Shown: in pieces, positions 88-10,890 of the stretch
Position numbering within the stretch: the first letter of the stretch is position 1
Layout: each line of letters begins with the position of its first letter
From: Gulosibacter sp. 10
GTDB lineage: Bacteria > Actinomycetota > Actinomycetes > Actinomycetales > Microbacteriaceae
Direction of reading: 5' to 3'
NCBI RefSeq assembly: GCF_900163695.1
Contig: NZ_FUIC01000020.1
Coordinates: 1-64,000 of the forward strand
Length of the DNA stretch: 64,000 nt
Made by a program: the position numbers and the translations under genes
The notes under the pieces: generated by a model
What the model was told of the DNA's origin: nothing
Databases searched by the model: none
Seen by the model: the letters and a program-made list of their open reading frames with translations, nothing else

Positions 88-118
88 GTTGCACTGTCCG
101 CAGTCATGGAGGAGCCGC

Positions 119-1960
119 ATGACCACCCGATCCGATGCGCAGAAGCGCGATGCCGGCAAGGCCGCGCTCGCCGAGCTCCTCAAACCCGTCCGGGGCCGCC
201 TGCTGCTCGGCCGAGCCCTCGGGCTCTGCTCCGGTCTCCTCGCCATCGCCCCCTACATCGCGCTGGTGCGCCTCGGCGAGGTACTCGTCGAGGCGGAGCA
301 GTCCGGCGTCCCCGCCGATCCGGAGCAGATCCGCGACATCACGACCGTCCTGGTCTCCGCCTTCATCGGCCAGCTGTTCTTCCTCGCCATCGGCCTGGCC
401 GTGACGCACTTCGCCGACCTCAAGCTCTCCGGCATCCTCCGCGACCGCATCATCGACCGCATCTCCCGGGCACCCCTGAGCTGGTTCTCGGACACCACCT
501 CGGGCCGCGTGCGCAAGGCGGTGCAGGACGACACGAAGACGCTGCACACCCTCGTCGCCCACGCGCCGGTGGAGATCACGGTGGCCATCGTCACTCCCCT
601 GGCACTCCTCATCTACGCCTTCGTCATCGACTGGCGGCTCGGCCTGCTCGCGATCGGCACCCTCCCCGTCTACTTCGGCATCCAGGCCATCGGCTACCGG
701 GGCATGGGCGAGAAGACCGCGGAGATGGATACGAAGCTCGGCGAGGTCTCCGCCACCGCGGTGGAGTTCGCGGAGGGCATCGGGGTCGTGAAGGCCTTCG
801 GCCAGGTCGGCCGGGCCCACGCCCGCTACGAGCGAGCCGCCCGCGCGTTCTCCGAGTTCTATCTCGCGTGGGTCGGACCCCTGCTCAAGATCTCGTCGAT
901 CTCCGAGGCGATCGTCTCGGTCCCAGTCCTGCTGCTCGTCAACATCCTCGGCGGCACGCTGCTCGTGCAGGGCGGATACGTGGGCGTCGCGGACGTGCTG
1001 GCCACCTCGCTCATCGCGCTCGTGATCCCCATGACCATGCAGGTGATCGGCCGCAACGCGATGGCCTATCAGCTCGCCGGCAACGCCTCGCTGCGGCTCA
1101 CGGAGATCCTCGACACCCCCGAGCTGCCGATGCCCGAGGGCGCGGAGTCCTCCGCCGCAGACCGCGACCGCTCGGTGCTCGTCGAGTTCGACGGCGTGAG
1201 CTTCTCCTACGGCGCCACCCGCGCCCTGAGCGGGATCGACCTCCGGCTCGAGCCCGGCTCCATCACCGCGCTCATCGGCGCCTCGGGATCGGGCAAGTCG
1301 ACGCTGGCCGGCCTGCTCGGGCGATTCCACGACCCCGACGAGGGCGCCGTGCGCTGCAACGGCACCGATATCCGCACCCTGTCGGGTCCGGAGCTGTACT
1401 CGACCGTCTCGTTCGTGCTCCAGGACCCGCAGCTGCTGCGCATCTCGCTGCGCGACAACATCCGCCTCGCGCGCCCCGACGCCTCGGAGGCGGAGGTCCG
1501 CGACGCCGCGGCCGCGGCCCACGTGCTCGACGAGCTCGAGCGCATCCCCGGCGGACTCGACGCGGTGGTCGGCGAGGATGCGAAGCTCTCGGGCGGGCAG
1601 GCGCAGCGGGTCGCGATCGCCCGCGCCCTGCTCGCGGATGCGCCGGTGCTGCTGCTCGACGAGGCGACCGCGGCCACCGACCCCGACGCCGAGGCGGAGA
1701 TCCAGGCCGCCCTGAACCGGCTGGTCGCCGGCCGCACCGTGCTCGTCATCGCGCATCGGCCGGAATCGGTCCTCGGCGTCGACCAGCTCGTCCATCTCGA
1801 GGACGGGCGCATCACGACGAGGCTCGCGGGCGACTCGGTCACCGCCGAGGCGATCCGCTCGCTCATGCGCCGCACCCCCGCCGCCGCGGCGACCGCAGCA
1901 GCCACCGCAACCGCCGCAACCGAAACCGCAGCAGAGGAGTCCTCCCGTGCCCACTCCTGA
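119..1960 (+). CDS. ABC transporter, fused permease and ATPase (first of a pair)
   Basis: A 613-residue half-transporter of the ABC exporter fold: an N-terminal six-helix membrane domain and a C-terminal ATPase. Walker A GASGSGKST is at 387-395, signature LSGGQ at 490-494, and Walker B VLLLDE at 510-515. The ATG at 119 is chosen because GGAGGAG (108-114) sits four bases before it; an upstream TTG at 89 has no such site. The stop overlaps the next gene by 14 bases, so the two are translated together and probably form a heterodimer. Pairs of this type include siderophore importers with exporter fold (IrtAB, YbtPQ) as well as drug exporters. The iron-box-like site upstream favours the former weakly. 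The C-terminal tail is rich in Ala, Thr and Glu. Confidence 0.85.
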   Translation: MTTRSDAQKRDAGKAALAELLKPVRGRLLLGRALGLCSGLLAIAPYIALVRLGEVLVEAEQSGVPADPEQIRDITTVLVSAFIGQLFFLAIGLAVTHFADLKLSGILRDRIIDRISRAPLSWFSDTTSGRVRKAVQDDTKTLHTLVAHAPVEITVAIVTPLALLIYAFVIDWRLGLLAIGTLPVYFGIQAIGYRGMGEKTAEMDTKLGEVSATAVEFAEGIGVVKAFGQVGRAHARYERAARAFSEFYLAWVGPLLKISSISEAIVSVPVLLLVNILGGTLLVQGGYVGVADVLATSLIALVIPMTMQVIGRNAMAYQLAGNASLRLTEILDTPELPMPEGAESSAADRDRSVLVEFDGVSFSYGATRALSGIDLRLEPGSITALIGASGSGKSTLAGLLGRFHDPDEGAVRCNGTDIRTLSGPELYSTVSFVLQDPQLLRISLRDNIRLARPDASEAEVRDAAAAAHVLDELERIPGGLDAVVGEDAKLSGGQAQRVAIARALLADAPVLLLDEATAATDPDAEAEIQAALNRLVAGRTVLVIAHRPESVLGVDQLVHLEDGRITTRLAGDSVTAEAIRSLMRRTPAAAATAAATATAATETAAEESSRAHS

Positions 1961-3821
1961 ACAGCACCCCGCCCCCGCGGTGCGGAAGCCCCAGGGGCCC
2001 CGCACGACGCAGGATGCGCGCCGCGGCGCGCCCCGGTTCGACCCGCTCATGCTCGCGCGGTTCCGCCCGCTCCTCTCGCCGGAGGGATGGCTTCGCCTGC
2101 GCATGTCGATCGGCATGAACATCGCCATGGGCGTCGTCGAAGGGCTCGCGATGCTGTCGCTGCTGCCGATCGCGACCGCGCTGACCGCCGAGGTGACCGC
2201 GAGCGCCGTGCCCGAGGAGCGCGCCCCGTTCGGCGTGTCCCTCGTCGGCTGGCTCTGGATCCTCGCCGCGCTCGCCGTGCTGGGCGGCGTCGTCCGCTAC
2301 GTCGACTCGCTCGTCGGCTATCTCGCGGCCACCGACTTCATCCGCCGCGGCCACCTCGCGGTGGGCGAGCAGCTCTCCGTGCTCCCCCTGGGCTGGTTCG
2401 ACCGCAAGCGCACGGGCGAGATCTCGCATCTCGTCTCCTCCGGATTCATGTCGGCGGGGCAGACGCTCGCGCACACCATGAGCCTCGTCGTCGGCAACGC
2501 GGCCACCCTCGCGACCCTCTGCATCGGGTCGTGGTGCTGGGACTGGCGCCTCGGCCTCACCCTGACCTGCAGCTTCCCGGCGGCCTTCGCCCTCATGCTC
2601 GTGGCCCGCCGCATCCGCGCCGCCGCCAACCGTCCGCTCGCGCCCGCCGACGCCGAGATGGCTTCGCGAGTGGTCGAGTACGCCGCCTGCCAGCCGGCGC
2701 TGCGCGCCGCCGGACGGTCCTCCGACTTCGCGCCCCTCGAGGCCGCCCGCGCCGCGAACGACCGCGCCCGATTCCGCGAGCTGTGGCTCTCCACCGCCGG
2801 GGTGCTGCTCAACGGCGTCTCCGTGCAGGCCGTGGTCGTCGCGATCATCGCCGTGGTCGGAGGGCTCGCCGCCTCGGGGCAGATGACCGCGGCCGCCGTG
2901 GTCGCCTTCGTGGGCCTGCTCCTGCGCTTCGCGAAGAACATCGGCACACTCGGCGAGAGCCAGCTCGGCGTCGAGGAGGCCAGGATCCCGCTCGAGAGGG
3001 CCGAGGAGATCCTCGACGCGGAGCCGCTGCCCGAGCCCGACGCCCCGGTCGCGCCGGGCGAGCCCGGCGGGGTCGAGATCCGCGACGTCCGCTTCGGCTA
3101 TGCCCCGGACCGGCCGGTGCTGGACGGCGTCTCGATGACGCTGCGGCCGGGCACCGTCACCGCCGTGGTCGGCCCCTCCGGATCGGGCAAGACGACGTTG
3201 GCGCGCCTGATCGCGCGGTTCTGGGATGTCGACTCCGGCTCGATCTCCGTCGGCGGCGTGGACATCCGCGAGATGCCGGTCGAGCAGCTCATGGCGCAGC
3301 TGTCGATGGTGTTCCAGGACGTCTACCTCTTCGACGACACCCTCGAGGCGAACGTGCGGGTGGGCCGGCCCGATGCCACGCGCGAGGAGATGCTCGAGGC
3401 CGCCGACCGCGCGGGCGTGAGCGCCATCGCCGCCCGGCTGCCCGACGGCTGGGAGACGCGCGTTGGCGAGGGCGGCCGCTCGCTCTCGGGCGGAGAGCGC
3501 CAGCGGGTGTCGATCGCCCGCGCACTCCTCAAACGGGCGCCGATCGTCCTCTTCGACGAGGCCACCTCGGCACTCGACGCCGGGAACGAGGCGAACGTCC
3601 TCGCGAGCGTGGACGAGCTCCGCGCGGGATCGACGTTCCTGGTGATCGCCCACAAGCTCGACACGATCCGCTCGGCCGACCATATCGTCGTGCTCGACGA
3701 GCGCGGCGGCATCGCCGAGGAGGGCGACCACGAGCGCCTCCATGCCGCCGGCGGCCCCTACCGCCGCTACTGGGATCGCCGGGCGGCGGCCGCGGGATGG
3801 ACCCTCGCGAGTCGGGGCTGA
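1947..3821 (+). CDS. ABC transporter, fused permease and ATPase (second of a pair)
   Basis: A 624-residue partner of the preceding gene with the same plan: membrane domain in roughly residues 45-330, then ATPase. Walker A GPSGSGKTT starts at residue 409, LSGGE at 513, and Walker B IVLFDEATSALD at 533. The GTG start lies inside the end of the upstream gene, with AGAGGAG before it, so translational coupling is likely. The substrate cannot be read from sequence. The heterodimer could import an iron-siderophore complex or export a small molecule. A TetR-family gene follows 36 bases downstream on the same strand and may regulate the operon. Confidence 0.85.
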   Translation: MPTPEQHPAPAVRKPQGPRTTQDARRGAPRFDPLMLARFRPLLSPEGWLRLRMSIGMNIAMGVVEGLAMLSLLPIATALTAEVTASAVPEERAPFGVSLVGWLWILAALAVLGGVVRYVDSLVGYLAATDFIRRGHLAVGEQLSVLPLGWFDRKRTGEISHLVSSGFMSAGQTLAHTMSLVVGNAATLATLCIGSWCWDWRLGLTLTCSFPAAFALMLVARRIRAAANRPLAPADAEMASRVVEYAACQPALRAAGRSSDFAPLEAARAANDRARFRELWLSTAGVLLNGVSVQAVVVAIIAVVGGLAASGQMTAAAVVAFVGLLLRFAKNIGTLGESQLGVEEARIPLERAEEILDAEPLPEPDAPVAPGEPGGVEIRDVRFGYAPDRPVLDGVSMTLRPGTVTAVVGPSGSGKTTLARLIARFWDVDSGSISVGGVDIREMPVEQLMAQLSMVFQDVYLFDDTLEANVRVGRPDATREEMLEAADRAGVSAIAARLPDGWETRVGEGGRSLSGGERQRVSIARALLKRAPIVLFDEATSALDAGNEANVLASVDELRAGSTFLVIAHKLDTIRSADHIVVLDERGGIAEEGDHERLHAAGGPYRRYWDRRAAAAGWTLASRG

Positions 3822-3857
3822 ACCCTCCCGCGAAGCCGCGCTCGATACGATGAGGCC

Positions 3858-4700
3858 ATGATCTACCTCGAGGGCGGCGGCGACGGCGCCCCCGCGCGCC
3901 TCGTGCCGGCCGGGTCCGACCCCGCGGATCCCGGGCGCACGAATCGCGAGCGCACGGGCCAGGGCCGCTCGGGCCAGGGCCGCACGACCCCGGCGCGCGT
4001 GGGCAAGAAGACCGGGCCGAAGCCGCGCTTCACGGTCGAGGAGGTGGTCGACGCCGCCCTCGACATCGGCATCGGCTCCTTCACGCTCGCCGACGTCGCG
4101 CGGCGCCTCGGCGTGGCGACCTCCGCCCTCTACCGCGTCGTGGACGGCCGGGATGCGCTCGTCGACCTCTGCCTGCGCCGCTGGATCGAGCGGGTGCCCA
4201 TGCCGGATCCCTCGCTGGGCTGGCAGGATCAGCTGCGGGCGTTCGCGGACGCGCTCTGGGAGGCGCACGCCGGGAATCCGGGCATGGTCGCGGCCATGAT
4301 CGACCGGCCGCAGACCGTGCAGCACGTATACGGCCCGCTCGCCGAGTTCTGCCGCGCACTGGACGCGGCCGGGCTCGAGGGCGGCCCCGGCCGGATCGCC
4401 TTCGCCGTGGACTTCGTCGCCGACACCGTGCACATGGCCTATCTGGGCTCGCAGCGGTACGGCGGGGCCGGCCGGGGCACGGACGGGCAGGGCACGGAAG
4501 GGCAGGATGCAGAAGGGCAGGACGCGGACGGCCGGGGCGCAGACGCGCAGCGCGACGGCGATGCGGAGGCCGGCGGCGAGGAGGTGCTGCGAGAGTACGT
4601 GGAGGGCGTCGGCGCGCAGGACGAGCCCGATTGGAGCTATCGCACGTGGCTGCGCCGCAAGGTCGAGTTCATCGTCGCCGGGCTCGAGGCGGGGCTCTGA
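3858..4700 (+). CDS. TetR/AcrR-family transcriptional regulator with low-complexity insertions
   Basis: A 280-residue protein. Residues about 55-105 form the TetR DNA-binding domain (FTVEEVVDAALDIG, then an HTH ending near SALYRVVDGRDALV). The rest resembles a TetR C-terminal ligand domain. Two parts are unusual: a Gly/Arg/Gln-rich N-terminal extension of about 50 residues, and a low-complexity insert near residues 200-240 with repeated GQG/GQD steps, encoded by imperfect short tandem repeats at about 4475-4550. The start could lie further in (GTG near 4000), because the extension is not typical and the ribosome site is weak. It probably regulates the two ABC genes just upstream; that is inference from position. 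Confidence 0.75.
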   Translation: MIYLEGGGDGAPARLVPAGSDPADPGRTNRERTGQGRSGQGRTTPARVGKKTGPKPRFTVEEVVDAALDIGIGSFTLADVARRLGVATSALYRVVDGRDALVDLCLRRWIERVPMPDPSLGWQDQLRAFADALWEAHAGNPGMVAAMIDRPQTVQHVYGPLAEFCRALDAAGLEGGPGRIAFAVDFVADTVHMAYLGSQRYGGAGRGTDGQGTEGQDAEGQDADGRGADAQRDGDAEAGGEEVLREYVEGVGAQDEPDWSYRTWLRRKVEFIVAGLEAGL

Positions 4701-4736: not shown

Positions 4737-5297
4737 CTACTCGACCGTCGCCTGCAGCTCGAGCAGCGCCTCCCTGAGCTGCTTGCGGGCCCGGTTGAGG
4801 CGCGAGCGCACCGTCTGCACCGGCACCTGCTGATACTCCGCGATCTGCTCGTACGTGTAGTCGCCGTACTCCCGCAGCACGAGGGCGACGCGGAAGTCCT
4901 CGCTCAGCGCGGCGAGCGCCTGCTGCACCGTGTCGCGCACCTCGTGGTCGTGCGCGAAATCGTCCGCGGGATGCTCGGGCTCGAAGACCGACCGGGACTG
5001 CTCGTCGTCGGCCACGGTCACCTCGCGTCGCCGGCGGATGACCGCGAGCGCCGCGTTCGTGGCGATGCGGAACGCCCACGTGCCGATCGAGGATTCGCCG
5101 CGGAACTTCGGGAGGTTCTGCCAGATGGCGATGAGCGCGTCCTGCAGGGCGTCCTCGGCGTCGGCGCGATGCTCGGTCGTGCGCAGGCACGTGGCCCATA
5201 AGCGGTCGCGGTAGGGCTCCAGCAGCGCCTCGAATGCGCGTCGATCGCCCTGCTTCGCGTTCGCGAGCAGCACTGCTTCATCGGCGTGCCGTGCCAA
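4737..5297 (-). CDS. ECF-type RNA polymerase sigma factor
   Basis: A protein of 186 residues, the usual ECF size. Region 2 holds AEDALQDALIAIWQNLPKF and SSIGTWAFRIATN. Region 4 holds DFRVALVLREYGDYTYEQIAEY followed by VQTVRSRLNRARKQLREAL. I start it at TTG 5297 because GGAGGT lies three bases upstream. An ATG at 5384 is in frame but has no ribosome site and would add unrelated sequence. No zinc-type anti-sigma gene is adjacent. It is transcribed away from the DxDGDG-repeat gene at 5488, and three near-identical ECF-like promoters precede that gene and the next two. The natural reading is that this sigma factor drives them; this is inference. Confidence 0.85.
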   Translation of the reverse strand: MARHADEAVLLANAKQGDRRAFEALLEPYRDRLWATCLRTTEHRADAEDALQDALIAIWQNLPKFRGESSIGTWAFRIATNAALAVIRRRREVTVADDEQSRSVFEPEHPADDFAHDHEVRDTVQQALAALSEDFRVALVLREYGDYTYEQIAEYQQVPVQTVRSRLNRARKQLREALLELQATVE

Positions 5298-5416: not shown

Positions 5417-5445
5417 GGAACTTTCCCGCCGCCCCGCGCATCCAA
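5417..5445 (+). promoter_or_regulatory. ECF-type promoter P1 of the DxDGDG cluster
   Basis: GGAACTT at 5417-5423, a 15-base spacer, then CATCCAA at 5439-5445. The same two elements at the same spacing precede the next two genes. GGAAC is a common ECF -35 core. The ATG of the first repeat gene lies 42 bases after the -10 element. Confidence 0.75.
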
Positions 5446-5487
5446 CCCTCGACAGCACAATCGTCTGCCCGAAAGGATCTGAAGATC

Positions 5488-6471
5488 ATGACCTCGCACG
5501 ACTCGAACTTCTCGGACCTGCCCTCGCCCATCACGACGACCGATGCCGAGGCGTCCGACCAGAAGGTCGACACCTCGGCCGAGTCGGTGGCCGCGGAGTC
5601 GACCGACGCGCCCCAGGGCCAGGCCTACGACCTCGACGAGGACGGCATCATCGACGTCGTCGAGTACGACACCGACGGCGACGGCGTGGCCGACGAGTTC
5701 CACCTCGACACCGACGGCGACGGCCAGGTCGACAACGTCTACACGGACCTCGACGGCGACGGCTACCTCGACGCCCGCTTCATCGACACGGACGGCGACG
5801 GCTCGCTGGACTACGCGGATGTCGACACCGACGGCGACGGCATCATCGACACCACGATGTACGACACCGACGGCGACGGCCACCTCGACACGGCCAACGT
5901 GGACCTCGACGGCGACTCCTACGCCGACGACAGCTACTCGCTGAACGAGGGCGACTACGCCCCGAAGGTCGACCCGACCGGCGCCTCCGCGGAGGACGTG
6001 TCGCAGACCGAGCCGGTGCCCGAATCCGGCGACGACTCCGGGAGCACGCCCGTCGGCACCGACGGCGAGGAGGGCGGCACCGCCGAGACGAAGAACGACG
6101 ACTCCGCGCAGGGCGAGGGCTCCGAGGGAGACGGCGCCGAGGGCGAGGACATCGACCCGGGCTCGGTGGACGAGGTGGACTACGACCCCGCCGACTCCGA
6201 CCCCGAGATGGTCGAGGGCGAGGCGACGGTCGACACGGACGGCGACGGCGTGGCCGACTCCGCCGAGATCGACCTCGACGGCGACGGCGTGAACGACTCG
6301 CTGCTCACCGACCTCGACGGCGACGGCCTCGCCGAGTCCATCTCGATCGACTCGGACGGCGACGGCGTCTACGACGTGTTCGGCACCGACACGGACGGCG
6401 ACGGGATCATCGACGACTTCACCGCGGACACCGACGGCGACGGCATCGGCGACACCCCGGTCGAGCTCTGA
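5488..6471 (+). CDS. DxDGDG-repeat acidic protein 1 (putative calcium-binding)
   Basis: A 327-residue, extremely acidic protein. About 14 copies of a 13-residue repeat D-x-D-G-D-G-x-x-D lie in two blocks (about residues 49-150 and 247-325), joined by a Glu/Ser/Gly-rich linker. The spacing of the Asp residues matches the calcium-binding loop of thrombospondin type 3 and EF-hand-like repeats, so calcium binding is expected from family knowledge. I see no signal peptide, membrane segment, wall-anchor motif or cysteine, which is odd for a family normally found outside the cell. The start is supported by GAAAGGA at 5471-5477. The ECF promoter lies immediately upstream. Role unknown. Confidence 0.8.
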   Translation: MTSHDSNFSDLPSPITTTDAEASDQKVDTSAESVAAESTDAPQGQAYDLDEDGIIDVVEYDTDGDGVADEFHLDTDGDGQVDNVYTDLDGDGYLDARFIDTDGDGSLDYADVDTDGDGIIDTTMYDTDGDGHLDTANVDLDGDSYADDSYSLNEGDYAPKVDPTGASAEDVSQTEPVPESGDDSGSTPVGTDGEEGGTAETKNDDSAQGEGSEGDGAEGEDIDPGSVDEVDYDPADSDPEMVEGEATVDTDGDGVADSAEIDLDGDGVNDSLLTDLDGDGLAESISIDSDGDGVYDVFGTDTDGDGIIDDFTADTDGDGIGDTPVEL

Positions 6472-6491
6472 CCGAGGAATCTCCGCAGGCG

Positions 6492-6520
6492 GGAACTTTC
6501 CGCACTGTCCCCGCATCCAA
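6492..6520 (+). promoter_or_regulatory. ECF-type promoter P2 of the DxDGDG cluster
   Basis: GGAACTT at 6492-6498, 15 bases, CATCCAA at 6514-6520. It begins about 20 bases after the stop codon of the first repeat gene, so the second gene has its own promoter. The flanking sequence GGCGGGAACTTTCC is identical to P1 and P3. Confidence 0.75.
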
Positions 6521-6571
6521 TACCCGACGACAGATCGAGACAGTTCTTCCTCCTGAAAGGAACCCAGGACC

Positions 6572-7639
6572 ATGAGCACGAACAACCCCTTCCAGCCGTA
6601 CACCGCCGACGGCGTCCCGCAGGAAGACATCGCCGAGGACCCCTCGCAGACCGACCAGGGCGCGGAACAGGCCCCCGTCGAGGAGGAGCAGGCCTCGGAC
6701 ATCAACTACATCGACACCGACGGCGACGGCACGCCGAACATCGCGCAGGTCGACACCGACGGCGACGGCTACGCCGACACCACGGTCGTGGACGAGGACG
6801 GCGACGGCGTCTACGACGCCACCTACGGCGACTCGAACGGCGACGGCTTCGCGGACGACGCGCAGTTCTACGCGGAGGACGGCTCGACCGAGACGATCGA
6901 GGAATCCGAGACCGAGACGATCGAGGAGTCCGAGCCGGCGCCCGAGTCCGAGGCCGCGCCCGACGCCTCCGGCGAGGGCTTCGGCACCGTCTACGCCGAG
7001 GACCTCCTGCCGCCGGAGTACGACTCCTCCGTGAGCCACGACACCGACGGCGACGGCCAGGCCGACCGCATCGACTACGACACGGACGGCGACGGCTACA
7101 CCGACCAGACCTTCATCGACCAGGACGGCGACGGCCGGTTCGACGAGGTGCTCGTGGACATCGACGGGGACGGCAGCACCGACATCCGCGCGCTGGACAC
7201 CGACCTCGACGGCACGATCGACTACATCGAGGCCGACACCGACGGCGACGGCGTCATCGACACGAAGCTGACGGACACCGACGGCGACGGCGAGATCGAC
7301 ACGGCGATGTACGACACGGACGGCGACGGCGTCATGGACGAGACCGAGACGATCGGCGGCGAGGAGCAGATCGCGGCGCCCTCGACGGGCAACCAGTTCG
7401 ACCTCGACGGCGACGGCGTCAACGAATCCACCTACGTGGACCTCGACGGCGACGGCCAGCTCGACGCGCTCGGCAGCGACTACGACGGCGACGGCGTGGC
7501 CGAGGTCGTGTACCAGGACACCGACGGCGACGGCCAGTACGACACCGTCTACATGGACACCGACGGCGACGGCACCCTCGACACCGTGTCGGAGGACACG
7601 GACGGCGACGGCGTGCTGGACACCGACTACTCGATGTAG
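6572..7639 (+). CDS. DxDGDG-repeat acidic protein 2 (putative calcium-binding)
   Basis: 355 residues with about 18 D-x-D-G-D-G-x-x-D repeats in three blocks (4, 8 and 6 units), separated by linkers rich in Glu, Ser and Pro that include a direct repeat of ETIEESE. Like protein 1 it starts without a signal peptide (MSTNNPFQPYTADG) and shows no hydrophobic segment or cysteine. The fifth unit of the middle block reads DTDLDG, a degenerate unit. Ribosome-site candidates (GAAAGGAA, CAGGA) precede the ATG. It is a paralogue of its neighbours, most likely from duplication of gene plus promoter. Function not known. Confidence 0.8.
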   Translation: MSTNNPFQPYTADGVPQEDIAEDPSQTDQGAEQAPVEEEQASDINYIDTDGDGTPNIAQVDTDGDGYADTTVVDEDGDGVYDATYGDSNGDGFADDAQFYAEDGSTETIEESETETIEESEPAPESEAAPDASGEGFGTVYAEDLLPPEYDSSVSHDTDGDGQADRIDYDTDGDGYTDQTFIDQDGDGRFDEVLVDIDGDGSTDIRALDTDLDGTIDYIEADTDGDGVIDTKLTDTDGDGEIDTAMYDTDGDGVMDETETIGGEEQIAAPSTGNQFDLDGDGVNESTYVDLDGDGQLDALGSDYDGDGVAEVVYQDTDGDGQYDTVYMDTDGDGTLDTVSEDTDGDGVLDTDYSM

Positions 7640-7661
7640 CCCGAGCCGATCGCGCGGGGCG

Positions 7662-7690
7662 GGAACTTTCCACCCGTCCCGCGCATCCAA
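7662..7690 (+). promoter_or_regulatory. ECF-type promoter P3 of the DxDGDG cluster
   Basis: GGAACTT at 7662-7668, 15 bases, CATCCAA at 7684-7690, placed 36 bases before the ATG of the third repeat gene. Elements and spacing match P1 and P2. Confidence 0.75.
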
Positions 7691-7726: not shown

Positions 7727-9073
7727 ATGACCACCAACCAGCCGACCTCCGACAGCAGCTACGCGCCGAACGAAGAAGCCGACCTCGACCAGAACGGCGT
7801 CAACGAGACCATCTCCGTGGACGCCGACGGAGACGGCGCGATCGACACCCAGCTCGTGGACAACAACAGCGACGGCCTGACCGACTACGCCACGCTCGAC
7901 ACCGACGGCGACGGCTACGCGGAGACCACCATGCTCGACACCGACGGGGACGGCGAGCTCGACACCGTGCTGGTCGACGGCGACGGCGACGGCTACGCCG
8001 ACGAGGCCTACACCATGGACCAGGACGGCAACGTCACGGACGTGACCGACAACCCCGCCGACCCGAACGGCGGCGCCGACCAGGTCGACTACGACTCGGG
8101 CGCGCCGGACACGGGCGCCCCCGACGCCACCGACTCCCCCTCGAGCAACGCCGAGGGCTACGACGCGGACGGCGACGGCTACGAGGAGACCACGCTCGTC
8201 GACAACGACGGCGACGGCTACCCCGAGGAGATCCACGTCGACAGCGACGGCGACGGCCAGACCGACCTCATCGACTACGACTACGACCAGGACGGCACGA
8301 CCGACGAGGTGATCGTCGACACCGACGACGACGGCTCCTTCGACACGACCTATGTGCCGGACGAGCAGGGCAACCTCGTCGAGGCGGACGGCGGATCGGG
8401 CGCGGGCGCGCCGGACTCGAGCGCGCCGGACGCGGACGCCGACACCACCAACGTCAGCGACCCCGGCACGGGCGGCGAGTCGCAGTACTCGGAGTCGGAG
8501 CTCACGGAGGACCACGACGGCGACGGCGTCAACGACGCCGGCTACTTCGACCTCGACGGCGACGGCACCGACGACACCTACGGCGTGGACAACGACGGCG
8601 ACGGCCTCATCGACGAGGCCGTGATCGACACGGACGGCGACGGCGTGTACGACACCTACGCGGTGGACACCGACGGCGACGGCGTGCTCGACTCCTCGGA
8701 GCCGGTCGACGGCGGCGCCGCGGACGGCGCGAGCGCGGACCCGGTGAGCAACGACACCGGCTACTCCGACGACGCGGGCTCCACCGGCGGGGTCGAGAAC
8801 CCCTACGGCGGCACCGAGTACGACACGGACGGCGACGGCATCGCCGACACCGTGGGCTACGACACCGACGGCGACGGCATCGAGGACTCGTTCATCACCG
8901 ACTCGGACGGCGACGGCATGCCCGACGCGGTGCACGTGGACGTCGACGGCGACGGCGTCATGGACGCGTCCGCCTACGACACCGACGGCGACGGGGTACT
9001 CGACTCCTACGACACCGACGGCGACGGCGCGGTCGACGCCTACGACATGGACGGCGACGGCGTCATCGACTGA
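7727..9073 (+). CDS. DxDGDG-repeat acidic protein 3 (putative calcium-binding)
   Basis: The longest of the three, 448 residues, with about 23 repeats in four blocks, the last running to the C-terminus (DMDGDGVID). Linkers are rich in Asp, Ser, Gly and Pro (for example SGAPDTGAPDATDS). Several units have Asn or Gln at the first loop positions (DNNSDG, DLDQNG), a sign of drift. There is no signal peptide, membrane helix, cysteine or anchor motif. TTAGGA stands before the ATG. The gene has its own ECF-type promoter and is followed by a strong hairpin, so the co-regulated cluster appears to end here. Calcium binding is expected from the loop pattern; the biological role is open. Confidence 0.8.
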   Translation: MTTNQPTSDSSYAPNEEADLDQNGVNETISVDADGDGAIDTQLVDNNSDGLTDYATLDTDGDGYAETTMLDTDGDGELDTVLVDGDGDGYADEAYTMDQDGNVTDVTDNPADPNGGADQVDYDSGAPDTGAPDATDSPSSNAEGYDADGDGYEETTLVDNDGDGYPEEIHVDSDGDGQTDLIDYDYDQDGTTDEVIVDTDDDGSFDTTYVPDEQGNLVEADGGSGAGAPDSSAPDADADTTNVSDPGTGGESQYSESELTEDHDGDGVNDAGYFDLDGDGTDDTYGVDNDGDGLIDEAVIDTDGDGVYDTYAVDTDGDGVLDSSEPVDGGAADGASADPVSNDTGYSDDAGSTGGVENPYGGTEYDTDGDGIADTVGYDTDGDGIEDSFITDSDGDGMPDAVHVDVDGDGVMDASAYDTDGDGVLDSYDTDGDGAVDAYDMDGDGVID

Positions 9074-9096
9074 CCGCCACGACCGATTCGGTCCCG

Positions 9097-9146
9097 CCGC
9101 GTGCGCGGCCGGATGACTCTCGGCAGTCGTCCGGCCGCGCACGCGG
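9097..9146. terminator. Very stable hairpin ending the DxDGDG cluster
   Basis: A perfect 17-base inverted repeat (9097-9113 with 9130-9146). Five more pairs, one of them G-T, can form inside, leaving a six-base loop CTCGGC. There is no T-run after it, so it is either a Rho-independent terminator of the GC-rich actinobacterial kind or an RNA-stability element between genes three and four. Confidence 0.55.
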
Positions 9147-9191
9147 CACCAGCAGCCACACGCACACTCTTCCGCAGAAGGAGCCACGACC

Positions 9192-9875: not shown

Positions 9876-10402
9876 CCCGCCCGGGACCAGCCCGCCTGGG
9901 ACACCGCGCGGCGCTCGAGCTCGATCAGCTCGCGCTTGAGCTCGACGCCGCCCCCGCCCGACACGCCCCGGCCGTACAGGCCGGGGCTTCCGTCTGCGCG
10001 GATGATGCGATGGCACGGGGTGAGCAGCGGCAGCGGATTCTTCGCGCAGGCGCTGCCCACCGCGCGGGCCGCCCGCGGCCGCTGCAGGATGTCGGCGAGC
10101 TCGCCGTAGCCGCAGGTCTCGCCGTACGGCACGGTGCGCAGGCCGCGCTGCACCTCCCCCGCGAACCCGGGCGAGCGGTGCACGCCGTCGAGCGGCACCT
10201 CGAACTCGCGCCGCTCCCCGCGCAGGTACTCCTCGAGCTCCCGCTGAGCCCGGTCGAGCAGCGCGTTCTCGGCCTCCGAGCCCGGCCGGCTCGCGAATCC
10301 GAGCGGGAAGTCCCCCGGCAGCCAGACGCGCGCGATGCCGCGCTCGGTGGCCTCGAGCCCGAGCTCCCCGATCTCGCTGTCGAAGCGGCGGTACCCGGTC
10401 AT
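9872..10402 (-). CDS. ogt: Methylated-DNA--protein-cysteine methyltransferase
   Basis: 176 residues. It repairs O6-methylguanine by moving the alkyl group to its own cysteine. The active-site motif PCHRI is at 129-133 with Cys130. Before it lies the helix-turn-helix region VPYGETCGYGELADIL, with the Arg-rich stretch RPRAARAVG. The C-terminal GLYGRG region carries the usual post-active-site Gly residues. The N-terminal domain is present, so this is the full Ogt form. Its ATG overlaps the stop of the carbonic anhydrase gene by four bases (ATGA), giving a two-gene unit. Confidence 0.9.
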   Translation of the reverse strand: MTGYRRFDSEIGELGLEATERGIARVWLPGDFPLGFASRPGSEAENALLDRAQRELEEYLRGERREFEVPLDGVHRSPGFAGEVQRGLRTVPYGETCGYGELADILQRPRAARAVGSACAKNPLPLLTPCHRIIRADGSPGLYGRGVSGGGGVELKRELIELERRAVSQAGWSRAG

Positions 10403-10890
10403 TCCGGCAGCACCTCGCGCAGCCGACCCGTCTCGACGTCGGCCACGAAGCCGCGCACCTGCTTGTGCTCGATGAACGGCGACTGCGTGATGCGCCGCAT
10501 CGATTCGCGCACGCTCGCGTCGACGTCCTTGAAGGACTCGGCCTTCCAGTGGGCGCGGGCGCCGGTCTCGTGCATCAGCAGGTCGTCGAACTCGTCCTCG
10601 GAGAACGTGGAGAGGCCGCAGTTCGTGTGGTGGATGAGCACGATCTCGCGCGTGCCCAGCATGCGCTGCGAGATGGTGAGAGACCGGATCATGTCATCGG
10701 TGATCACGCCGCCCGCGTTGCGGATGATGTGCGCCTCGCCGAGCTCGAGCCCGAGCAGGCCGAAGATCCGCAGGCGCGAGTCCATGCACGCGACCACGGC
10801 CACCCGCTTCGAGGGGCGCAGCGGCATCGGACCGGGGTAGGTGCGGGCGTACTCCGCATTGGCGGCGAGCATTTCGTCGGCGAACGACAT
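10399..10890 (-). CDS. Beta-class carbonic anhydrase
   Basis: 163 residues. It interconverts carbon dioxide and bicarbonate. The zinc ligands of the beta class are visible: Cys35 in ACMDSRL (with the Asp37/Arg39 dyad), His88 and Cys91 in IHHTNCGL. The length is that of the short, cytoplasmic beta-CA type of actinobacteria. GAGGT stands upstream of the chosen ATG. It is translationally coupled to ogt (ATGA overlap); the reason for pairing the two is not obvious. Confidence 0.9.
   Translation of the reverse strand: MSFADEMLAANAEYARTYPGPMPLRPSKRVAVVACMDSRLRIFGLLGLELGEAHIIRNAGGVITDDMIRSLTISQRMLGTREIVLIHHTNCGLSTFSEDEFDDLLMHETGARAHWKAESFKDVDASVRESMRRITQSPFIEHKQVRGFVADVETGRLREVLPE

Follow-up and report, generated by a model that had tools for sequence, protein, structure and literature searches.

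A promoter shared by tandem acidic repeat genes beside an orphan ECF sigma factor of Gulosibacter, and its association with a dynamin/Hsp70 module

The first 64,000 nucleotides of contig NZ_FUIC01000020.1 of Gulosibacter sp. 10 (the window, meaning the whole stretch of DNA that was analysed; its genome is G000 below) carry a gene for an extracytoplasmic function (ECF) sigma factor, divergent from three consecutive genes for acidic proteins with DxDGDG repeats. As a preliminary description of this DNA had noted, each of the three genes is preceded by the sequence GGAACTT-N15-CATCCAA, with a 15-base spacer at all three sites. We compare this locus with related genomes and describe its association with genes for dynamins and an Hsp70-like ATPase. 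The features on which the comparison is built are as follows.

4737..5297, minus strand: ECF sigma factor gene, 186 amino acids (Pfam Sigma70_r2 and r4_2), start taken as the TTG at 5297 after GGAGG
5417..5445, plus strand: promoter 1, GGAACTT-N14-GCATCCAA
5488..6471, plus strand: DxDGDG gene 1, 327 amino acids, 13-residue repeats
6492..6520, plus strand: promoter 2
6572..7639, plus strand: DxDGDG gene 2, 355 amino acids
7662..7690, plus strand: promoter 3
7727..9073, plus strand: DxDGDG gene 3, 448 amino acids
9192..9875, plus strand: gene 4, acidic protein and module member, best promoter match in G000 only 9/15

The promoter and the sigma factor gene

A search of the genome for GGAACTT-N15-CATCCAA returned exactly three matches in the 3.65 Mb draft, and these are the three sites of the window, where the chance expectation is 0.00 (100 shuffles). 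When spacers of 13 to 17 bases were scanned genome-wide, matches were again found solely at these sites, and the reversed control pattern had none. The sites start 65-80 bases 5' of the ATG codons at 5488, 6572 and 7727, and GGCGGGAACTTTCC is exact at all three. With up to two mismatches allowed, the whole genome holds 11 matches (three perfect, none with one mismatch and eight with two) and the reversed control eight; the absence of one-mismatch matches and the equal numbers of two-mismatch and control matches indicate that the background starts far from the real sites. Because GGGAACTTTCC is near-palindromic, the first -35 box also matches the opposite strand with two mismatches. GGAAC is a common -35 core of ECF promoters.

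The base preceding CATCCAA is G at 3/3 window sites and at 28 of 30 sites of the genus. A flank profile was made from the 30 strict genus sites, excluding two with a spacer of 16, and since the sites were selected by their boxes, the boxes are invariant in it and the flanks carry the information. Upstream of the -35 box, at -19 to -10, the profile has an A/T tract, and YGA is conserved at 5-7 bases 3' of the -10 box. Judged by these flanks, the conserved DNA resembles an entire ECF promoter, upstream element and start site included. A scan of the window for RNA families found one tRNA and nothing else.

The divergent gene had been taken for an ECF sigma factor, and this identification is borne out by Pfam (Sigma70_r2, 1e-15, 57.6 bits; Sigma70_r4_2, 6e-15, 55 bits; both above gathering scores), by NCBIfam (TIGR02937, 112.5 bits, above the cut-off) and by matches to ECF sigma factors in the PDB down to 3e-32. 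Its domain content is that of the ECF class (group IV), with sigma2 and sigma4 domains and neither sigma1.1 nor sigma3 listed by Pfam, and in an alignment of 11 orthologs the motif ADAEDALQ is invariant. We rejected control by a kinase, as in the ECF43 type, because the DAED motif of sigma2 is intact and its charged residues are kept. Among the Pfam results for the 11 immediate downstream neighbours of the sigma gene (one in the window and ten at other loci) there is no anti-sigma family, and the neighbour in L050 has no Pfam family at all; the remaining neighbours were inspected for anti-sigma factors by eye, among open reading frames (ORFs) of at least 50 amino acids. Self-regulation of the sigma factor was also rejected, since the DNA upstream of its gene has no conserved promoter match in 11 genomes. 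Corynebacterium may be an exception: a GGAACTT..GCATTACA site there lies upstream of the gene 4-sigma genes and scores 12/15 in L098, where it ties with non-module sites.

The genes directly beside the sigma gene differ in the other genomes of the genus. In the window, positions 89-4700 beyond its 3' end hold two ABC-exporter-like genes and a TetR-like gene (below Pfam cut-off), and in G003 (L044:5430-8105) a gene for a P-type cation ATPase (Pfam) converges on the sigma gene, other genomes differing there. A frame for a sigma homolog in G223 (L175 around 10000-10485) holds one TAG, has no module nearby and is possibly a decaying copy.

Distribution of the promoter and the genes behind it

Of 99 related genomes, 13 have the promoter, the 11 of the genus and, with a 14-base spacer, two others, so that with the 15-base spacer it is present in 11/11 genus genomes and 0/88 other relatives. 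Orthologs of the sigma factor at E<=1e-30 are likewise found in 11/11 genus genomes and in 0/88 others, and sigma factor, promoter and DxDGDG genes co-occur in all 11. In a draw of 349 genomes of the family, the promoter with exact spacing was found in ten, namely 8/8 of the genus and 2/341 outside it. One of the two outside sites, in G560, precedes a DxDGDG gene beside the sigma factor and is the same sequence as L094, which had been found earlier via the sigma factor; the other, in G749, lies inside a long ORF on the opposite strand. The reversed control pattern matches 3/349 family genomes, and isolated chance matches are therefore to be expected. Six further genomes of the genus of G560 in this draw have no strict promoter, and the sigma factor was not looked for there. 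The strict promoter marks the system, in that 341 family genomes outside the genus yielded these two sites and one of them is a sigma factor and DxDGDG locus.

Within the genus there are 32 strict sites in the 11 genomes, and 24 of them lie before DxDGDG genes. The remaining eight precede a micro-ORF (five sites), an HtrA-like protease gene (two) and a PASTA kinase gene (one); the protease sites have a spacer of 16, and the protease carries Trypsin_2 and PDZ domains (Pfam, tested in L048). Counted from the genes, 24 of the 27 called DxDGDG ORFs carry a site scoring 14 or 15 of 15; the exceptions are the first such gene in each of G001 and G009 and a fragment in G010. Gene 4 is preceded by a site of 13-14/15 in G001, G006, G007, G008, G009 and G010, and lacks such a site in G000, G003, G004 and G005.

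These comparisons modify the earlier view of the locus as a self-contained regulon of acidic repeat proteins. The idea that the neighbouring sigma factor reads the promoter is backed by its presence in every genome of the genus and its recurrence beside the sigma factor in other genera. Because the dynamin/Hsp70 module described below lies on another contig in this genome and has no strict promoter there, "self-contained" fits only the strict sites of this species. Acidic repeat proteins account for most strict sites of the genus, but as a description of the targets they are too narrow, since relatives add gene 4, an IniA-like dynamin, the HtrA-like protease, the PASTA kinase and the micro-ORF. 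The suggestion that each promoter was duplicated together with its gene is plausible where the copies are tandem, but unrelated genes have the same promoter as well.

In 14 loci from outside Gulosibacter we scored the fixed 29-base geometry. In 11 of them a module gene lies behind the first-listed top site, a count that ignores kinship, where chance would give 0.06-0.09 of positions. Of the three best sites in 20.5 kb of Salinibacterium, two stand before DxDGDG genes and one before the IniA-like dynamin gene, the two best sites in Pseudoclavibacter L105 precede gene 4 and a DxDGDG gene, and in a Corynebacterium group, which belongs to another order and whose sigma factors are 44-46% identical, GGAACA..GGCATTCAA lies before a DxDGDG gene. 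The comparison of the same locus in related genera, as proposed earlier, thus finds versions of the promoter at DxDGDG genes beside the same sigma factor as far as Corynebacterium.

Several of the other sites have neighbours of their own. By our reading, the five micro-ORF sites lie beside the gene for phosphoenolpyruvate (PEP) carboxykinase, with the promoter 5' of the micro-ORF (L036:5881, L040:6650, L045:6979, L049:6105 on the minus strand and L052:6378 on the minus strand); the window genome has no strict promoter at such a micro-ORF. The product has 42 amino acids in L036 and 36 in L052, both with LNWYPKLTPKP, and 38 in L045 and L049, which have a related LTWY form that is also found in L040. 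Adjoining the micro-ORF, L036:3535-5682 and L052:6588-8747 hold a small gene, a gene for a DNA/RNA non-specific endonuclease (Pfam, L036) and another small gene, a cluster that looks like a secreted nuclease toxin with its immunity gene. The PASTA Ser/Thr kinase gene behind the promoter in G009 (L053:6619) adjoins a second kinase-like gene, with about 160 bases between the promoter and the called start. In Williamsia, the best promoter match of L096 (4892-5347, minus strand) precedes a gene for a CD225 (interferon-induced transmembrane-like) protein and not a DxDGDG gene.

The repeats were analysed in 24 DxDGDG proteins from ten genus genomes. Their period is 13 residues (278/373 spacings), with the consensus D-[TL]-D-G-D-G-[VYI]-[AI]-[DE]-[TS]-x-x-[VTIY]. 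Asp and Glu make up 25-33% of the residues, Lys and Arg at most 2% in 23/24 proteins, and Cys is absent from 23/24, the called start of the exception probably being too early. No transmembrane (TM)-like stretch was found by hydropathy in the window proteins, and no signal peptide was seen by eye in the product of DxDGDG gene 1. Neither Pfam nor NCBIfam gives these proteins a family above cut-off; a relative in L173 reaches 16.3 bits for TSP_3 (cut-off 25) and 18.4 bits for DUF6802 (cut-off 27), a family not listed for the window proteins. An AlphaFold2 model built from nine orthologs (mean pLDDT 67, repeat parts 81-91) predicts a strand every 13 residues, in two blocks, forming a strand-turn ribbon. 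Foldseek returned nothing under 1e-3 for this ribbon, and the best structural match has Z 9.9 (rmsd 3.2, 101 aligned), to beta domains of the SdgB/TarM type, followed by OspA; these matches are weak, and we read the likeness as a shared single-layer beta arrangement only. The DxDGDG proteins of L172 (5664-6908) and L095 (6378-7553, minus strand) each include a C39-like peptidase domain as well, with Pfam Peptidase_C39_2 scoring above its cut-off both times.

Two inverted repeats lie between the genes of the block.

7652..7684, plus strand: inverted repeat with 12-bp arms and a 9-base loop, overlapping promoter 3; possible terminator of DxDGDG gene 2
9096..9147, no strand assigned: terminator-like inverted repeat of 23 bp, between DxDGDG gene 3 and gene 4

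The RNA of positions 9073-9150 folds with -60.6 kcal/mol, and no T run follows the 9096-9147 repeat. Strong stems (score >=11) surround the promoter at 10/43 sites, of which five belong to gene 4 and five to a later DxDGDG gene; in the window the stem concerned is the 7652-7684 repeat at promoter 3. The mean stem score is 7.6; when the upstream flanks were exchanged 200 times, it was 6.1 (sd 0.24, maximum 6.84). The stems may end transcription of the preceding gene.

A dynamin/Hsp70 module around relatives of the sigma factor

Our survey of sigma loci comprised 548 pattern matches and 327 relatives, of which the best 80 were kept. Among these best 80 of 327, the 18 loci whose sigma factor is at least 44% identical (L087-L103 and L105) span Gulosibacter, Pseudoclavibacter, Salinibacterium, Williamsia, Actinoplanes and Corynebacterium, and 16 of the 18 have Hsp70 and dynamin matches near the sigma gene; the exceptions, L091 (no match) and L094 (one dynamin), are both near contig ends. 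At L104 (41% identity) and at 61 weaker loci (L106-L166), Hsp70 and dynamin genes were not found in the fetched stretches. Relatives of the sigma factor therefore usually sit with an IniA-like and an IniC-like dynamin and an Hsp70-like ATPase, and their loci mostly also hold a DxDGDG gene and a short acidic protein. A class-wide draw of 394 genomes, with a maximum of eight candidates scored per genome, contained the sigma factor at E<=1e-40 in five, including G000. L172 and L173 have the sigma factor with both dynamins, Hsp70 and a DxDGDG gene, and L174 has the same set except that Hsp70 was not matched in the 16 kb fetched. The fifth genome is G223, whose sigma homolog with the TAG is described above. 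Six genes run co-directionally in L172, encoding Hsp70, the IniA-like dynamin, the DxDGDG protein with the C39-peptidase-like domain, gene 4, the IniC-like dynamin and the sigma factor. In Salinibacterium a GrpE with a TM-like stretch is also part of the set, as would suit a functional Hsp70.

The IniA-like protein of G003 matches mycobacterial IniA (6j72) at 3.2e-18 over query residues 48-610, or about 560 residues. The second Dynamin_N protein, which we call IniC-like, was compared, of the Ini proteins, with IniA and matches it weakly (E 0.066). Within the genus, the Hsp70-like gene lies near the DxDGDG block in 9/11 genomes, counting G009 only if its single contig is circular. The window genome has its IniA-like, Hsp70-like and IniC-like genes together on contig C43, which is not the contig of the sigma gene, and its IniA-like ortholog (L176 9529-11385) is not beside the sigma gene.

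The Hsp70-like protein and gene 4 are candidate regulators. Hydropathy shows a strong TM-like segment with about 170-200 residues behind it in 13 of 15 homologs of the Hsp70-like protein (eight from Gulosibacter); the segment is missing in Actinoplanes L097 and in G173. The model of this C-terminal domain has a pLDDT of 88, and its best matches (BT_1490, PsbP and LpqN, tied at Z 8.2), followed by the PknH sensor (Z 6.8) and RseB (Z 5.5), have middling Z values; Foldseek found none under 1e-3. The modelled domain most resembles envelope domains (PsbP, LpqN), which is suggestive. The nine aligned Gulosibacter proteins of gene 4 share an invariant Trp in their N-terminal segment, which a long acidic tail follows, and gene 4 has no Pfam family above cut-off. 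Outside Gulosibacter and Pseudoclavibacter, gene 4 was assigned by eye, and a gene-4 profile matched none of the loci from Salinibacterium, Williamsia, Actinoplanes and Corynebacterium. Similar Trp segments were seen by eye in both Williamsia loci, Actinoplanes, Pseudoclavibacter L105, G413 and G314; gene 4 overlaps the sigma gene, as called, in Williamsia L096, and the candidate in Corynebacterium lies 15 bases before the sigma gene and is acidic, without the Trp segment.

With no anti-sigma gene seen, a TM-like segment and envelope-like domain in the Hsp70-like protein, and the linkage of gene 4, it can be proposed that this Hsp70 senses the envelope and, by way of gene 4, holds or releases the sigma factor. 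We put forward only tentatively, and as rather unlikely, the novel type of ECF control that would follow, in which a membrane-spanning Hsp70-like receptor replaces the anti-sigma factor and gene 4 is an adaptor that binds the sigma factor. The receptor would have an extracytoplasmic domain like PsbP, LpqN or the PknH sensor, a TM helix and a cytoplasmic Hsp70 ATPase, and damage to the envelope would alter the Hsp70, free the sigma factor and induce dynamins, gene 4 and calcium-binding DxDGDG ribbons for membrane repair. The reading as receptor and adaptor is weakened by the Corynebacterium candidate for gene 4, because it lacks the Trp segment.

Weighing the readings, and known systems

The link between the sigma factor and the promoter is well supported by the comparison of genomes, and we infer that the sigma factor recognises it. 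Our preferred reading is that an orphan ECF sigma factor regulates an envelope or membrane stress module that is comparable to iniBAC but driven by a sigma factor, and we consider this probable. RNA polymerase with the orphan sigma factor would start transcription at the three GGAACTT-N14-GCATCCAA promoters, with the result that three very acidic, probably cytoplasmic DxDGDG repeat proteins are made. Sigma factor and targets would be part of a recurring actinobacterial module with the IniA-like and IniC-like dynamins, gene 4 and the Hsp70-like ATPase, which usually appears to have a membrane segment and then a further domain. Damage to the envelope would cause the sigma factor to be released or made, dynamins and Hsp70 would remodel the membrane, and the DxDGDG proteins might bind calcium or serve as an acidic scaffold.

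A number of observations weigh against this reading or parts of it. The first-listed top site lies elsewhere than before a module gene in Williamsia L096 and L099 (where one of three tied sites precedes the IniA-like gene) and in Actinoplanes L097, a non-module site scores as high as the top site in L102 and in L103, and the site in L172 is weak (11/15) and inside a gene; moreover, five of the 14 scored loci are one Corynebacterium group and not independent. No DxDGDG gene was found in either Williamsia locus, a crude pattern search gave no candidate for gene 4 in L095 (Salinibacterium), L173, L100 and L103, and the Hsp70 gene lies away from the sigma locus in 2/11 genus genomes (G000 and G001). 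The fetched dynamin and Hsp70 genes of Gulosibacter have no acceptable promoter match, and those of G000 no strict one, so the sigma factor may not control dynamins and Hsp70 in this genus. The suggestion of calcium binding derives from the residue pattern, and the DxDGDG proteins stay below the Pfam cut-offs for the calcium-loop families (TSP3_bac 13.1 bits against 25, EF-hand_5 10.9 against 25.9).

Other explanations concern either the promoter or the products. It is very improbable that these are genuine ECF promoters read by a different ECF sigma factor, with the divergent gene merely a neighbour: the genome does have other sigma candidates (14 in a first look at G000) and the GGAAC core is common, yet genomes outside the genus hold up to 37 first-look candidates without having the promoter at 15-base spacing, and the promoter recurs beside orthologous sigma factors in other genera, including the distant ones of Corynebacterium. 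We give still less credence, hardly any, to the idea that the conservation chiefly reflects an operator or a terminator hairpin, with the palindromic GGGAA-CT-TTCCC and the flanking inverted repeats acting as a repressor site or ending transcription. The strong stems and the raised mean stem score described above would suit it, but a strong stem is missing at 33/43 sites, and 24 of the 27 DxDGDG ORFs keep both boxes at a fixed distance, with flanks that look promoter-like.

For the products, one could accept that the sigma factor reads the promoters and regard the DxDGDG proteins as polymers of the cell surface or of a biofilm, which some unrecognised route would export, and not as parts of a membrane stress response. 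We hold this to be unlikely; the acidic composition of the repeats, poor in Lys and Arg, and the distant likeness of their fold to OspA and other single-layer beta sheets agree with it, and against it stand the lack of a TM-like stretch by hydropathy and of a signal peptide by eye and the linkage of DxDGDG genes to Hsp70 and dynamin genes, which form one co-directional run in G413. The module might instead be an anti-phage dynamin system related to Eleos (LeoA/LeoBC), since in PADLOC, used here without a cut-off, the IniA-like protein matches LeoA at 2.6e-18 and LeoBC at 9e-10 and the IniC-like protein matches them at 7e-9 and 1e-4, both dynamins being closer to LeoA than to LeoBC. The match in the PDB to mycobacterial IniA, which is induced by cell-wall drugs, is equally strong and near full length, however, and the HtrA-like and PASTA-kinase targets point to the envelope. 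To our knowledge Eleos comes without an Hsp70 or an ECF sigma factor, which also counts against this explanation, and we regard it as very unlikely. The module resembles Eleos in its dynamins and differs from it in that they are accompanied by an Hsp70-like gene, an ECF sigma factor and DxDGDG genes.

The DxDGDG repeats resemble the DxDxDG loops of TSP3 and EF-hand proteins in their 13 residues with Asp at 1, 3 and 5, Gly at 6 and Asp or Glu at 9; they differ in scoring below the Pfam cut-offs, in being free of Cys in nearly all copies and in the strand-turn ribbon predicted by AlphaFold2. Among the matches listed, no literature links an ECF sigma factor to dynamin/Hsp70 modules, and none treats Gulosibacter sigma factors, the GGAACTT-N15-CATCCAA promoter or the module. 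The sigma factor may already be covered by an existing ECF group number, and the joining of an ECF regulon to an ini-like dynamin/Hsp70 module is an apparently undescribed combination.

The preferred reading is best compared with iniBAC. Excerpts of the published accounts describe IniA as a membrane-fission dynamin (PMC6715688) and iniBAC as induced by cell-wall drugs via the ATPase IniR, with a dnaK-like gene downstream of iniR in M. smegmatis (PMC5760070). The module described here shares with it an IniA-like dynamin, probably an IniC-like one, and Hsp70. It differs in having an ECF sigma factor where iniBAC is switched on by IniR (PMC5760070, PMC6715688) and in including DxDGDG proteins and gene 4, which the excerpts of these two papers do not mention for iniBAC; IniB and IniR were not searched for here. 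According to an excerpt of a survey of ECF sigma factors (PMC8103513), anti-sigma factors are their main known control, membrane-anchored ones cover 74% of the ECFs with known mechanism, 102 ECF groups are without functional insight, and for orphan ECFs transcriptional control may be the sole control. Like the orphans in that excerpt, the sigma factor described here has sigma2 and sigma4 regions and no anti-sigma gene seen adjoining it. Unlike them, it is accompanied in many genomes by an Hsp70-like protein, which mostly has a membrane segment, and by a short acidic protein. Together with the two dynamins and the DxDGDG proteins, these recognisable companions offer a concrete hypothesis on the possible control of an orphan ECF sigma factor and on the genes that it activates.

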